From Novosphingobium flavum (lineage in GTDB: Bacteria; Pseudomonadota; Alphaproteobacteria; Sphingomonadales; Sphingomonadaceae), in NCBI RefSeq assembly GCF_014230315.1, contig NZ_JACLAW010000003.1, positions 1-64,000 of the forward strand: 64,000 nt of DNA, given 5' to 3'. The position numbers and the translations under genes were made by a program. The notes under the pieces are model-generated. The model did no database searches, was not told the origin of the DNA, and was given only the letters and a program-made list of their open reading frames with translations. This document shows, one piece after another, positions 42,729 through 63,491 of this stretch. Within the stretch, counting starts at the first letter, position 1. Each line of letters begins with the position of its first letter.

Positions 42729-42756
42729 GCGGGTGGGGGCTCAGCCCTCCACCCGC
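42729..42756. terminator. Hairpin between convergent dienelactone hydrolase and hisI genes
   Basis: GCGGGTGG (42729-42736) pairs with CCACCCGC (42749-42756), and GGGC/GCCC extend the stem inside. It covers the hisI stop codon. There is no clear T-run on either side, so it may stop transcription weakly or only protect mRNA ends. Confidence 0.4.
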
Positions 42757-43118
42757 TCCAGTTCGTCCCCGTTGAGCAGGCGGTAGAAACAGGAGCGCGC
42801 GCCGGTGTGGCAGGTTGGCCCAGCGGGGCGCGCCTTCAGCACCAGCGCGTCCTGGTCGCAATCGACCAGAATCTCGGTCACCTCGAGCACGTGGCCCGAG
42901 CTTTCGCCCTTCATCCACAGCTTTCCGCGCGAACGGGAATGGAAGTGAGCCTTGCCCGTGCGCCGCGTGGCGTCGAGCGCGGCCTGGTCCATGAAGGCCA
43001 CCATCAGCACCTCGCCGGATTCGCTGTCGGTGACGACCGCGCTGAGCAGGCCCTTGTCGTCGAATTTCGGCATGAATCTGCGGCCTTGTTCGCGCTCGGC
43101 GCTGGCGCTGTCGGCCAT
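42741..43118 (-). CDS. hisI: Phosphoribosyl-AMP cyclohydrolase
   Basis: The 125-residue enzyme opens the adenine ring of phosphoribosyl-AMP in histidine synthesis. The metal-binding motifs are visible as VDCDQDALVLK and CHTGARSCFYR, together with the typical FMDQAAL and GKAHFHSRSRGKLWMKGE blocks. HisE is not fused and no other his gene is in the window. The start at 43118 follows AAAGGA by about eight bases. A structured 365-base stretch lies upstream. Confidence 0.93.
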   Translation of the reverse strand: MADSASAEREQGRRFMPKFDDKGLLSAVVTDSESGEVLMVAFMDQAALDATRRTGKAHFHSRSRGKLWMKGESSGHVLEVTEILVDCDQDALVLKARPAGPTCHTGARSCFYRLLNGDELERVEG

Positions 43119-43137: not shown

Positions 43138-43200
43138 TCAAAGGTTAACGTGTTGCACGATAACCACAGACCCGACCCAAAATCCAACAATGCCGCGCAT
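43138..43200 (-). CDS. Possible 20-codon leader ORF upstream of hisI
   Basis: ATG at 43200 opens a 20-residue hydrophobic peptide (begins MRGIVGFWVG, one histidine) ending at TGA 43138, 19 bases before the hisI ATG. AGGAAAG lies about nine bases upstream of its ATG. It has no run of histidine codons, so a classical his attenuator is unlikely. Its start codon lies directly after the 11-base inverted repeat arm. Coding status is unproven. Confidence 0.25.
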   Translation of the reverse strand: MRGIVGFWVGSVVIVQHVNL

Positions 43201-43299
43201 GGCACTTTTCTTTCCTGTCGATTCGATGAACAAGGGCCGTGCGGTTCGACAGGGAACCGCCCGCCGATCCGGCGGAACCAGGCAAAAGTGCCATGGTTC
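43199..43299. repeat. Nested inverted repeats with alternative pairings upstream of hisI
   Basis: ATGGCACTTTT (43199-43209) and AAAAGTGCCAT (43284-43294) are perfect 11-base inverted repeats. Inside are CCTGTCGA/TCGACAGG (43214-43221, 43246-43253), GCGGTT/AACCGC (43241-43246, 43255-43260) and CCGCC/GGCGG (from 43261 and from 43271). GAACCAGGCA/TGCC-A-TGGTTC (43275-43284, 43289-43299) pairs across the right outer arm. Several pairings exclude each other, as in RNA switches. No similar copy is seen elsewhere in the window. Confidence 0.6.
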
Positions 43300-43453
43300 A
43301 GGGGTAAATAGGCCGGGACCCGCGAAATGCAGGGCCGCCTGAATTGAGGGATTGGGTGAAGCGATCGTGGGGGCGATCGCCGAACCGCGGAAGCGGCACC
43401 CGGACGGTTTCGTCACGAGGACGCCCGGAGCTTCGGTTCCGGGCGTTTTCGTT
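43300..43453 (+). ncRNA. Candidate small RNA ending at an orphan intrinsic terminator
   Basis: A strong plus-strand terminator (43421-43453) lies where no plus-strand gene ends: comF and hisI are both on the minus strand. Between 43300 and the terminator are further stems, such as GCGATCG/CGATCGC (43361-43367, 43374-43380) and CGAACCG paired with CGGTTTCG (43381-43387, 43405-43412). The 5' end is not determinable; no clear promoter was found. It matches none of 6S RNA, SRP RNA or tmRNA by the hallmarks I know. Confidence 0.35.
43421..43453 (+). terminator. Strong intrinsic terminator with UUCG tetraloop
   Basis: ACGCCCGGAGC pairs with GTTCCGGGCGT over 11 bp (one G-U) around a TTCG tetraloop, and TTTCGTTT follows on the plus strand. 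On the minus strand it could also serve as the comF end, but the T-rich side faces plus. Confidence 0.75.
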
Positions 43454-43483
43454 TGTCGGCTTGCGGAACCTGGGATCGCTAAC

Positions 43484-44221
43484 TCACCCCGGGAGCGATT
43501 CGTTCAGCACGCGCGCGAAACAGGCTATCACCACCTTGTCCGCCCCGGCCCGTTTCAGCGCACGCACACAGGCTTCGCTGGTCGCGCCACTAGTCAGGAC
43601 GTCGTCGACAAGCACGATCTTCGCGCCTTTCAGCCGCTCCGCGTGCCTCGCATTGATCGCAATCGCACCTTTCAGCGCCTGCTCGCGCTGCCGGGCGCCG
43701 AGCCCGCCAAGGCTGGGCGTCTGCTTCACCCGCAGCAGACCATCGACCAGCATCGACATGCCAAGGTCCCGCGCGATCTCGCCGGCCAGCAGGGCCGACT
43801 GGTTGTAGCCACGACTCCACAACCGCCAGCGGTGCAAGGGCACCGGCACGGCCAGCCAGTCCGCCCCCACCGGCGGCAGGCGCGCCTCGATCAGCCGCGC
43901 CAGCCACGGTGCCAGCGCGATGTTGCCGCCGCGCTTGAAAGCGAGAACGAGGCGGCGGGAAGGCTCGTTGTAAAGGGTCGCGGCGGCGATCCCATCATGC
44001 CGTGGCGGCTCGGCCAGGCAGACGGCGCACAGCGAATTGTCGTCAACAGGATCGGTAAACGGGCGCTGGCACGCGGCGCAGCAGGGATGGCCCGGAATGG
44101 ACAGTTCGGACCAGCATGCCGCGCAGATCCCTTCCTGCACGGCGATGGCCTCGCTGCACAGCGGGCAACGCGGCGGGAATACAAGGTCGATCAGCGGCGC
44201 GATGGCCGGGTGAATGCGCAT
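43484..44221 (-). CDS. ComF family phosphoribosyltransferase-like protein
   Basis: The 245-residue protein has an N-terminal double zinc-finger region (CPLCSEAI, CAACWSEL, CCAACQRP, CAVCLAEP) and a PRTase-type domain with the PRPP loop IVLVDDVLTSGATSEAC. ComF supports DNA uptake in naturally competent bacteria, but many non-competent species carry it. The start at 44221 (MRIHPAIAP) is used; the upstream open frame lies over the divergent methyltransferase. Confidence 0.88.
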   Translation of the reverse strand: MRIHPAIAPLIDLVFPPRCPLCSEAIAVQEGICAACWSELSIPGHPCCAACQRPFTDPVDDNSLCAVCLAEPPRHDGIAAATLYNEPSRRLVLAFKRGGNIALAPWLARLIEARLPPVGADWLAVPVPLHRWRLWSRGYNQSALLAGEIARDLGMSMLVDGLLRVKQTPSLGGLGARQREQALKGAIAINARHAERLKGAKIVLVDDVLTSGATSEACVRALKRAGADKVVIACFARVLNESLPG

Positions 44222-44266
44222 GGCGCCATGCTTGCAATGCCCGGGCGAGCGGGGCAAGCCGCCGCC

Positions 44267-45013
44267 ATGGACCAGCCCACAACTCCCGAGATCTTCGCCC
44301 CACATCGCCGCGCCGCGCAGGCCGCCCGGATGGCCGCGCGGCAAGGCCGGGCCGATGCCGCGCGCTTCCTTCTCGAAGACGTGGCCGAGGATGTGGCCGA
44401 GCGGCTTGGCTTCCTGCGCCATGAGCCGGGCCGGGTACTGGTACTCGGCGATCCGGCCGGGGTGATCGCCGCAGCGCTGGGCCTAGCGGCGGAGGCAGGC
44501 ACTTTCGCGCTGGAGCAACCGTGGCCCACTGGCGGCTACGACACGATCGTCTCAGTCTTTGCCCACGATACGGCGAACGACCTGCCCGGCGCCCTGATCC
44601 ATGCCCGCCGCGCCCTTACGCCGGGCGGGCTGGCGCTCGTGACCATGTTGGGCGCAGGCAGCCTGCCGAGCCTGCGGGCGGTGATGCTCGCCGCCGACGG
44701 TGAGCGCCCCTCGCCGCGCATCCACCCGCAGGTCGACGTCCGCGCTGGGGCCCAATTGCTCCAGCGCGCGGGCTTTGCCGATCCGGTGGCCGACAGCCGT
44801 TCGCTCGCGGTGCGCTACGGCACGCTCAACCGGCTGGTCGAGGACCTGCGCGATCAGGGCCTGTCGGGCGTGCTGACCCAGTCCGGCCCTCCCCTCGGCA
44901 AGGCCGCGCGCGCGCGCGCCGAGGCCGCCTTTGCCGCCGAGGCGGATCAGGACGGGCGCGTTACCGAACGGTTTGAATTGCTGACCCTGTCGGGCTGGGC
45001 CTTGAGGAAATAG
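44267..45013 (+). CDS. SAM-dependent methyltransferase-like protein (BioC/NDUFAF5-like)
   Basis: The protein of about 248 residues resembles the BioC/NDUFAF5-like group: PEIFAPHRRAAQAAR at the start, a VLVLGDPAG segment where the SAM motif I normally sits, and a late ARRALTPGGLALVTMLG block. The glycine motif I is degenerate (GDPAG), so methylation is uncertain. The start at 44267 is favoured by homologue length; ATG at 44228 would add 13 residues. It is divergent from comF by 45 bases and convergent with ppdK. Confidence 0.72.
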   Translation: MDQPTTPEIFAPHRRAAQAARMAARQGRADAARFLLEDVAEDVAERLGFLRHEPGRVLVLGDPAGVIAAALGLAAEAGTFALEQPWPTGGYDTIVSVFAHDTANDLPGALIHARRALTPGGLALVTMLGAGSLPSLRAVMLAADGERPSPRIHPQVDVRAGAQLLQRAGFADPVADSRSLAVRYGTLNRLVEDLRDQGLSGVLTQSGPPLGKAARARAEAAFAAEADQDGRVTERFELLTLSGWALRK

Positions 45014-58901: not shown

Positions 58902-60730
58902 CACTTTCTCCCGAACAGCTTCTCGATATCGCCGTGAGCCAGCTTCACCCACGTCGGCCGGCCGTGATTGCACTGGCCGGACCGGGGGGTACGCTCCATC
59001 TCGCGCAGCAGGGCATTCATCTCTGCCACCGACAACGCACGGCCCGCCCTGACGGATCCATGGCAGGCCATCGTTGCCAGCACGTGGTCGAGCCGCTCGC
59101 CCAGGAGCAGCACGTCGCCGTTCTGGGCCAGATCGTCGGCGATGTCCTGCACCAGCGCGGAAACGTCGCTCTTCGCCAGCGGCGCCGGGATCGACCGCAC
59201 CAGCATGGCGTTCGGCCCGAACCGTTCGATCGCCAGCCCGAACGTGGCCAGCTTGCCGGCGTTCTCCTCCAGCCGGTCGCAGGCCGGTTCGTCGAGTTCG
59301 ACCACTTCGGGCAGGAGCAGCGCCTGCGCCGCCGCCACCTTGTCCCCCGCCCCGGCCGCCTTGAGCCGTTCCAGCACAAGGCGTTCATGGGCGGCGTGCT
59401 GGTCTACGATGACGAGGCCATCCGCCGCCTCGGCGACGATATAGGTGTGCGCCACTTGCCCGCGCGCGACCCCGAGCGGAAACTCGGCCTGCTCCGGCTC
59501 CAGCGGCTCGGCCACTTCGGCGCGGCCCGCCGGGGCCATGACGGCCTGCTCATAGCCCCGCCAGGCCTGCCCGGCCTCGGACACGCGCGGCGCGCCGAAC
59601 AGCGAAGGGCTGGCAGCCGGCCACAACGGCGCCGCACTCGTCCCGCCACTGGACGGGAACGCAGACTGCGGCCCGAGCGGCGCCAGAGGCTCGGCCTGCC
59701 AATTACCCATGGCTCCGGCCGCCGGGGTCTGCGCCGTGCGCTTCCCCTCGCTCTCCAGCGCGTGGCGCAGGCCCGAAACGAGGAACCCCCGGATGAAAGC
59801 CGGATCGCGGAAACGCACCTCGGTCTTTGCGGGATGGACGTTTACGTCCACTTCTTCAGGTGGAACCTCAAGAAACAGGGCCAGCACGGCGTGACGGTCT
59901 CGCGCCAGCATGTCGGCATAGGCGCCGCGCACGGCCCCCACCAGCAGACGGTCCTTCACCGGGCGGCCATTGACGAAGAGATACTGGTGATCGGCCACGC
60001 CCCGGTTGAAGGTCGGCAGGCCCGCCACCCCGGTCAGCCGGGCGAACCCGCGCTCGGCGTCGATCACCACTCCATCCTCGGCCAGTTCACGCGCCACCAG
60101 CCGGGCCACGCGATTGGCCAGCCCCTCCCCGCCCTGCACGGCCAAGGCGCGGCGCCCGTCATGCTCCAGCGTAAAGCCGATCTCGGGCCGGGCCATGGCA
60201 AGCCGGCGGACCACGTCGAGGCAGGCCGCATATTCACTGCGCGGCGAGCGCAGGAACTTGCGCCGCGCCGGCACCCGGCCGAACAGGTCCTCGACCCGGA
60301 TGCGCGTGCCGGGCGGCAGGGCGGCCGGGCCTTCACCGGCCAGTTGGCCGTGATCGACCACCCGCCGCCAGCCTTCGGCCGCGCCTTTGGCCCGGCTCTC
60401 CAGCGTCAGCCGCGCGACAGAGGCGATCGAAGGCAGCGCCTCGCCCCGGAAACCGAGCGTCGCCACCAGTTCGATCGCCTCGTCGGGCAGCTTCGAGGTG
60501 GCATGGCGTTCGAGCGCGAGGGCCATCTCGTCAGGCGCCATGCCGCAGCCGTCGTCGGTCACCTCGATCAGGTCGAGCCCGCCATTGGCGAGGCGCACCG
60601 CGATCTGGGTCGAACCCGCGTCGATCGCGTTCTCGACCAGTTCCTTGAGCGCCGCGGCGGGCCGCTCCACCACCTCGCCGGCGGCAATGCGGTTGACAAG
60701 GTTTTCGGGCAGGCGGCGAATGGTGGGCAT
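58901..60730 (-). CDS. mutL: DNA mismatch repair protein MutL
   Basis: The 609-residue protein has the GHKL ATPase motifs (ENAIDAGSTQIAVRLANGG, DDGCGM, GFRGEALPSIASVA), a variable Pro/Ala-rich linker and a C-terminal dimerisation domain (QAEFPLGVARGQVAHTYIVA onward). It couples mismatch recognition to repair. No MutS is in the window. Its start (60730) is 192 bases from mreB (divergent). Confidence 0.94.
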   Translation of the reverse strand: MPTIRRLPENLVNRIAAGEVVERPAAALKELVENAIDAGSTQIAVRLANGGLDLIEVTDDGCGMAPDEMALALERHATSKLPDEAIELVATLGFRGEALPSIASVARLTLESRAKGAAEGWRRVVDHGQLAGEGPAALPPGTRIRVEDLFGRVPARRKFLRSPRSEYAACLDVVRRLAMARPEIGFTLEHDGRRALAVQGGEGLANRVARLVARELAEDGVVIDAERGFARLTGVAGLPTFNRGVADHQYLFVNGRPVKDRLLVGAVRGAYADMLARDRHAVLALFLEVPPEEVDVNVHPAKTEVRFRDPAFIRGFLVSGLRHALESEGKRTAQTPAAGAMGNWQAEPLAPLGPQSAFPSSGGTSAAPLWPAASPSLFGAPRVSEAGQAWRGYEQAVMAPAGRAEVAEPLEPEQAEFPLGVARGQVAHTYIVAEAADGLVIVDQHAAHERLVLERLKAAGAGDKVAAAQALLLPEVVELDEPACDRLEENAGKLATFGLAIERFGPNAMLVRSIPAPLAKSDVSALVQDIADDLAQNGDVLLLGERLDHVLATMACHGSVRAGRALSVAEMNALLREMERTPRSGQCNHGRPTWVKLAHGDIEKLFGRK

Positions 60731-62952: not shown

Positions 62953-63491
62953 ACGCATTCGGCCCCGCCGAGAGCAATCGCGTGATCAACCGCGCGCCCT
63001 CGCCGCTGGTGGCGCGGGCGCTGCCATGGCTGGTAATCATGGCTGGATCGGTGGCGCAGGGAATGCCGCTGATCGCTTCGGCCCCGGTCATGCCGCCTTT
63101 CGGCTTTCTCCTGCTGCTCGCCTGGCGCCAGCTGCGCCCGGGCGTGCTCCCGGTCTGGGCCGGGCTGCCGCTGGGGCTGTTCGACGATTGCTATTCCGGC
63201 CAGCCGATGGGCTCGGGCATGTTGCTGTGGTCGGCCGCGATGATCGGGATGGACGCGATCGAGATCCGCTTTCCCTGGCGCTCCTACGTCATGGAATGGC
63301 TGGTCGCCGCCGCCTTCATCCTCGGCTACCTGCTGCTCGCCGGCGGCATCGCCCATGTCGGCGGCTCGATCCCCGTGCTCAACGCGCTGGTCCCGCAGCT
63401 GATCTTCTCGGTTCTCACCTTCCCGCTGGTCGAACGCTTCGTGGCGGCCTGCGACCGGGCGCGGCTGTGGCGCTTCAGGGCCTTTACATGA
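62949..63491 (+). CDS. mreD: Rod shape-determining protein MreD
   Basis: The 180-residue protein has about five or six membrane helices and little charged sequence, in the usual mreD position between mreC and mrdA. It overlaps both neighbours by four bases. It supports MreC-PBP2 assembly. Confidence 0.88.
   Translation: MNAFGPAESNRVINRAPSPLVARALPWLVIMAGSVAQGMPLIASAPVMPPFGFLLLLAWRQLRPGVLPVWAGLPLGLFDDCYSGQPMGSGMLLWSAAMIGMDAIEIRFPWRSYVMEWLVAAAFILGYLLLAGGIAHVGGSIPVLNALVPQLIFSVLTFPLVERFVAACDRARLWRFRAFT

Follow-up and report, generated by a model that had tools for sequence, protein, structure and literature searches.

A probable stand-alone RNA gene between hisI and comF in Novosphingobium flavum and its relatives

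The intergenic region between hisI and a comF-type gene of Novosphingobium flavum probably carries a plus-strand, stand-alone RNA gene about 260 nt long, a reading to which we give a probability of roughly 0.9 on the basis of sequence comparison. The region lies in a 64,000-nucleotide stretch of DNA that was analysed as a whole, referred to here as the window, and its features are collected in Table 1. An earlier note had singled out a 101-base block of nested inverted repeats as an element in itself; the block is real, but it would form the 5′ half of a gene that runs on to about 43453. That note correctly described a structured non-coding RNA, outside the known riboswitch classes and distinct from a dispersed palindrome, whereas the strand, extent and role that it proposed did not hold. 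Comparison supports the predicted gene well, through an upstream box at near-fixed spacing, compensatory changes in the helices, a terminator, and relatives, found here and at other loci, that fall in one family. The start of the gene was estimated from a −10-like element and its end was set at the T run of the terminator.

Table 1. Predicted RNA gene, its parts and its neighbours, with positions in the window.
Feature	Position	Strand	Basis or remark
hisI (phosphoribosyl-AMP cyclohydrolase), neighbour	42741..43118	-	PF01502, 3.2e-32
Upstream box TGTTGCACGATAACCACA, probable promoter/operator of the RNA	43151..43168	+	Consensus of 88 unique intergenic regions
CAAAAT element, candidate -10	43178..43183	+	Spacing to TGTTGCA
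Predicted RNA gene	43190..43453	+	hisI/comF flanks, covariation, terminator
Outer 12-nt arms	43198-43209/43284-43295	+	Pairing not conserved
Hairpin H1, GCGGTTC-GACAGG-GAACCGC, purine-rich loop	43241..43260	+	Shuffle test, covariation
Hairpin H2, CCGCCG-ATC-CGGCGG	43261..43275	+	Sequence; hairpin there in relatives by eye
GAACCA-GGCA-loop-TGCC-A-TGGTTC hairpin, then AGGGG	43275..43304	+	Holds conserved GGTTCAGGG
3′ domain (model R1)	43344..43451	+	Closing helix TTGAGGGA/TTTCGTCA, three-way junction, terminator
Three-way junction GGGTG/CACCC, GCGATCG-TGGGGG-CGATCGC, CCGC/GCGG	43354..43401	+	Changes on both sides
Intrinsic terminator ending GTTTTCG	43420..43453	+	Sequence and alignments
comF-type phosphoribosyltransferase ORF, neighbour	43484..44422	-	PF18912 and PF00156

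The predicted gene is oriented opposite to both of its neighbours, with hisI behind it and comF ahead of it in its direction of reading. The true start of the comF-type ORF probably lies further inside than the tabulated frame, and the first 66 codons were omitted from the domain query. A 553-aa open frame on the plus strand (43352-45013) crosses the end of the RNA and then the whole of comF in antisense, probably as a by-product of high G+C. Relatives of the locus were fetched through the RNA sequence itself, so that the presence of the RNA was preselected and the flanking genes are the actual finding: of 116 loci, 101 carry both hisI and comF around the RNA, 7 carry one of them and 8 neither, the last being chance pattern matches. 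The two genes also flank the RNA at all 18 loci of a further series (L152-L169).

Covariation points to a conserved fold in the 3′ domain. Among 78 mostly Novosphingobium sequences, 95.4% of cells are paired and 218 cells show double changes, compared with 64.8 in shuffles, and none of 500 shuffles was equally high on any measure. Changes on both sides occur at 17 of 29 pairs, including 11/11 modelled pairs of the three junction helices (helices 2-4), while slid versions of the helices pair at 39-50%. Folded independently, 16 loci that represent three other genera show the same plan (97.5% paired, 38 double-change cells versus 13.0). The closing helix, which joins UGA-GG to UU-UCA, consists of nearly invariant pairs; with almost no variation they prove nothing, and covariation leaves the helix unproven. 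Counted without that helix and the terminator base, the plus orientation has 99 G-U pairs against 24 A-C mismatches. Because of this asymmetry and of the plus-strand terminator, the RNA gene is assigned to the plus strand, away from hisI. The underlying alignment (A1) holds 78 of 86 unique domains, omitting five shortened by the anchor (L034, L056, L083, L122, L130), two cut at the terminator (L046, L135) and L043 with a long insertion; L041 and L086 yielded no anchor. In L043 the insertion (1738-1883), a tandem array of GGGCCCATCAGATTTT-like repeats, follows the junction and precedes TTTCGTCACG.

Variable in length, the 5′ half is difficult to align, and its best-supported part is hairpin H1. 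In a test run without preselection for H1, a stem of at least 6 pairs was found at this place in 68 of 103 loci, compared with a mean of 27.9 and a maximum of 42 over 30 shuffles. An alignment of 47 of the 70 loci with a detected H1, drawn from 104 loci with the GTTC motif (A2), is 98.7% paired in H1 and has 33 double-change cells versus 7.2 when shuffled, figures to be read in a set selected for H1 and so favouring it. For the 5′ part of A2, RNAalifold gave six consensus pairs only, four of which are H1. Hairpin H2 and the GAACCA hairpin were identified by eye and not by covariation. GTTCAGG is invariant or almost so in the 47 sequences, and GGTTC(A/G)GGGA is present too in members distant from hisI. 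Over the 88 unique regions, the consensus passes from the box (TGTTGCAnGATAACCACA ... CAAAATC) through GGTTCAGGGA, ATGAGGGAT, a G-rich loop and TTTCGTCACG to the terminator.

The distribution of the RNA was followed in several samples. Used whole as a query, the intergenic region matched 26 of 61 genomes, the own genome included, all of the same genus, and most of the best-matching pieces lay to the right of the block of repeats, at about 43345-43455, where the sequence ends on the plus strand in a hairpin followed by TTTT. A pattern scan of named genomes returned 89 stretches, among the listed ones mostly from Novosphingobium or Sphingomonadaceae. The pattern TTTCGTCACGAGNNCGCCCGG also matches in Methylobacterium, Mycobacterium, Planotetraspora and others, where the domain is absent on reading; five of eight such chance loci scored at most 24.8 bits against R1, and the own genome scored 107 bits. 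Four of the chance matches, in Methylobacterium and Methylorubrum (L054, L110, L111, L117), share by eye a 200-nt stretch around the match, the picture expected of an element that moved recently.

In a sample of 296 genomes from the order, model R1 matched 160 at E ≤ 0.01, including 16/16 of the same genus, and 94 at E ≤ 1e-6, all in the family of the window by row count. In a class-wide sample of 240 genomes only four matched at E ≤ 1e-4. Three of these, the own genome among them, belong to the same family; the fourth (L212), from outside the family, is a bare terminator. That match and a 33-nt piece (L174) are not counted as members. Among 35 weaker R1 matches, the stretches shown contain TTC(A/G)GGG in 23, GGGGG in 30 and CGTCACG in 32; L222 and L252, which miss most motifs, and L253, without TTC(A/G)GGG, were excluded as members. 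At four of these 35 matches (L237 and L248-L250) comF or hisI lies next door, and the other 31 have neither within 1.3 kb.

A second model, R2, was built from 15 diverged loci with neither hisI nor comF in the fetched stretch; its alignment (A4) uses 15 of 17 references, as L211 duplicates L239 and L247 has a divergent end. At E ≤ 1e-4, R2 matched 94 of the 296 genomes, and these too belong without exception to the family of the window. It misses the window genome at this threshold, along with 14 of the 16 genomes of the same genus and 86 of the 94 that are strong for R1. In the eight genomes where both models are strong (G015, G063, G086, G173, G199, G219, G239, G253) they coincide every time, and the place is the hisI-comF copy in all eight; R2 thus marks hisI-comF copies though it was built without any. 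By our own count, the two models together mark about 180 of the 296 genomes sampled from the order, and every one belongs to a single family.

Outside the hisI-comF setting the RNA takes other neighbours. Both genes are absent within about 1.5 kb at all 30 R2 loci, and one of them (L257) lies next to genes for an FtsX-like permease and an isochorismatase. A third type of setting was noted at L228, L231 and L245, from one other genus, where a tRNA gene lies less than about 450 nt from the RNA. In 25 genomes chosen mainly for a weak or absent R1 match, hisI was detected in 24; TGTTGCA occurs within 420 nt upstream of hisI in none of these 24, and none has a strong comF neighbour of hisI (four short or weak matches, 31-44% identity). 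The RNA lies 228-440 kb from hisI in three genomes (G061, G080, G083) and on a separate contig in a fourth (G075). Because the RNA of relatives occurs away from hisI, the hisI neighbourhood is a matter of lineage, not of function.

The upstream box travels with the predicted RNA. In 104 of 108 loci where the spacing was measured, with a pattern that permitted 20-26 nt, AAAA follows TGTTGCA after 21 nt in 99 and after 20 nt in 5; CAAAAT would then serve as the −10. A related TGT(T/G)GC...CACA box stands 113-122 nt before GTTC.GGG at 30/30 R2 loci without hisI or comF, although it lies outside model R2. The own genome has one exact box, plus two sites with 3 mismatches, and this single exact site rules out a general promoter class. 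A simple sigma-70 scan found no consensus promoter in the upstream region of the RNA. An upstream element of its own, a terminator and a covarying structure are what we find for the candidate, as for a stand-alone, intrinsically terminated sRNA.

We infer that the gene is transcribed, how its product acts, and that it acts in trans, the last because of the genomes in which it lies far from hisI. The leading, though tentative, hypothesis is that it works as a titrating, sponge-like RNA, which would capture a protein or C-rich RNAs through repeated G-rich sites; the fold would hold and protect these sites in loops and linkers, namely the H1 loop, GTTCAGGGA and the TGGGGG loop. Across 104 RNAs, GGGA/GGGG runs number 4.28 per RNA, several of them in loops or linkers, versus 0.82 for TCCC/CCCC. 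The mean unpaired probability is 0.44 for G runs, 0.24 for C runs and 0.35 overall, a modest excess, and one conserved GGGA (in UGAGGGA) probably forms part of the closing helix. RNAs of the CsrB/RsmZ type titrate their partner through a repeated motif, ANGGA in hexaloops. The candidate likewise has a stand-alone gene, an intrinsic terminator and several hairpins and linkers that may present a repeated purine-rich motif, but its motif is GGGA/GGGG. CsrA is the textbook partner for GGA sites, and we found no CsrA (PF02599) in 41 genomes, with 3 of 14 controls positive; a strict CsrA sponge was rejected on this basis. That the RNA is a family-wide, CsrB-like global regulator, directed at a protein preferring GGGA/GGGG or at C-rich RNAs and keeping its own promoter box across loci, strikes us as a rather unlikely extension. 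If true, a single conserved RNA would control such a protein or such RNAs from different loci in different genera.

The same RNA gene could instead encode a base-pairing regulator, whose G-rich loops and near-invariant UUUCGUCACG would be the seeds for mRNAs, an option that we consider doubtful. Its near-invariant stretches and the copies distant from hisI agree with such a role, and AAGGGGG could pair, with one G-U pair, with the 16S anti-SD sequence, so that contact with the ribosome is thinkable. The invariant stretch, however, lies partly inside the closing helix, and the T tails are short at both hisI-comF and R2 loci, the latter read at 26 of 30; for the hisI-comF type the pattern swallowed one T, making these run lengths one too low. 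A classical Hfq-binding tail has seven or more T, according to one source (PMC5558911), and because the tails here are short such a tail is less likely, which speaks mildly against this type. Whether titrating or base-pairing, an RNA with this covariation and an upstream box of its own, kept in about 180/296 genomes, is probably important to the cell.

A riboswitch or leader acting in cis on hisI from the minus strand, as the earlier note proposed, is very improbable. Its upstream position, a minus-strand folding z of −2.18 and near-isoenergetic competing folds, the latter computed for the plus strand of the window genome, would suit a switch. Yet folding beats shuffles on both strands and more strongly on the plus strand (z −2.97), and the G-U/A-C ratio (99 to 24) and the terminator place the RNA on the strand opposite to a 5′ UTR of hisI. 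The distance from the box to hisI is free to vary (4 to 93 nt), no known Rfam class matches, and in other genera the RNA does not stay with the gene that it would regulate. The outer stem had also been said to block the ribosome site of a short leader ORF, which is not kept: an ATG stands at that position in 10 of 99 loci, and any start codon with a stop 12-30 codons further on in 5 of 99. At this locus hisI has a probable RNA gene as its neighbour, not a switch.

Nor are the outer arms kept. All five inverted repeats described in the earlier note are found at their places: the outer arms, which measure 12 nt and not 11, TTTCCTGTCGA/TCGACAGGGAA (43211-43221/43246-43256), GCGGTTC/GAACCGC (43241-43247/43254-43260), CCGCCG/CGGCGG (43261-43266/43270-43275) and GAACCA/TGGTTC (43275-43280/43294-43299). 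The repeats thus exist, but pairing of the outer arms and of CCTGTCGA/TCGACAGG is no more than chance would give or is confined to this genome. Perfect 12-nt inverted repeats with a spacer of 15-100 nt number 2 in the window, versus a mean of 1.7 (maximum 4) in 15 Markov simulations; because the two counts are alike, the outer arms alone are ordinary. The sole other such repeat in the window spans 60420-60481, with a spacer of 38 nt. In the nearest relative (L179, 80% identity across the block) the outer arms and the partner strand TCGACAGG are gone, while by reading the GCGGTTC hairpin is still pairable despite substitutions. A swap test took in 85 of the 88 unique loci, including L053, in which an arm is empty; across this set the outer-arm register pairs at 51.7%, versus 53.5% for swapped arms; some other registers beat swaps, by at most 4 points. 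The swap test, the loss in L179 and the chance frequency together rule out the outer arms as a conserved stem. Competition between CCTGTCGA/TCGACAGG and H1 as a conserved switch falls likewise, as the partner strand is absent in L179 and H1 is the conserved one. Covariation among relatives, which the earlier note had proposed to look for, therefore supports the inner helix H1 and not the outer arms.

The mutually exclusive pairings are nevertheless predicted in the window genome itself, the outer pairs being unconserved and the inner ones conserved. Mean pair probabilities there are 0.49 for the outer arms, 0.51 for the CCTGTCGA stem, 0.48 for GAACCA/TGGTTC and 0.07 for H1. The fold with the outer arms has a predicted energy of −130.1 kcal/mol and that with the GAACCA hairpin alone −130.0 kcal/mol; H1, H2 and the GAACCA hairpin together reach −127.9 kcal/mol, 2.4 kcal/mol worse than the best fold. 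We read this modelled preference for the outer arms as a private fold or as a limit of the energy model.

Comparison with known families leaves the predicted RNA gene on its own. A search of Rfam 15 gave no gathering-level match in the window or in 16 relatives, as the earlier note had anticipated for riboswitches, and nothing but tRNAs at that level in 20 loci of the wider set. The nearest miss is ar35 (RF02346), an alphaproteobacterial sRNA that shares CACGAGGA before the terminator hairpin; its score of 21.7 bits (E 0.066) is under the gathering cut-off of 45 and its body aligns only via mismatched pairs and a 43-nt gap, so this identity was rejected. We found no description of the RNA in the open literature, a scope outside which many subscription papers fall. 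Passages of two reports describe SuhB and FnrS of the sphingomonad Sphingopyxis granuli (PMC13414033, PMC6563040), and SuhB, as described there (PMC6563040), is a trans-encoded RNA of 61 nt that acts with Hfq, which sets it apart from the candidate. To those who study these degraders and water bacteria, the predicted gene offers a deletion target and a bait for its partner.

That the RNA might be a diverged 6S RNA is exceedingly improbable. The size fits, and none of nine genomes of the genus has an RF00013 match above the cut-off; 6S RNA seems diverged there. RF00013 has no match in the window or elsewhere in the own genome, however, and in two same-genus genomes (G002, G005) a weak 6S-like match lies at a locus separate from the RNA. 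A multi-hairpin fold with G-rich loops is, moreover, not that of 6S RNA, and we rejected the identity.

A small protein gene or dual-function RNA is equally hard to credit. ATG, TTG or GTG precedes AGGG in most loci, but some members stop after three codons (ATGAGGGATTGA, for example L026 and L027), domain lengths vary by non-multiples of three, and conservation tracks base pairs.

A mobile palindromic element of the REP or MITE kind, which the earlier note had named as the alternative and which the inverted repeats and the size would allow, is next to impossible: the 101-base stretch is a single copy in its genome and so not dispersed, plasmid and phage records gave no blastn match at 1e-5, and the hisI-comF location recurs in 101/116 loci. 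Elsewhere in the window, a tRNA-Thr gene (anticodon GGT) lies at 63002-63094 on the plus strand.
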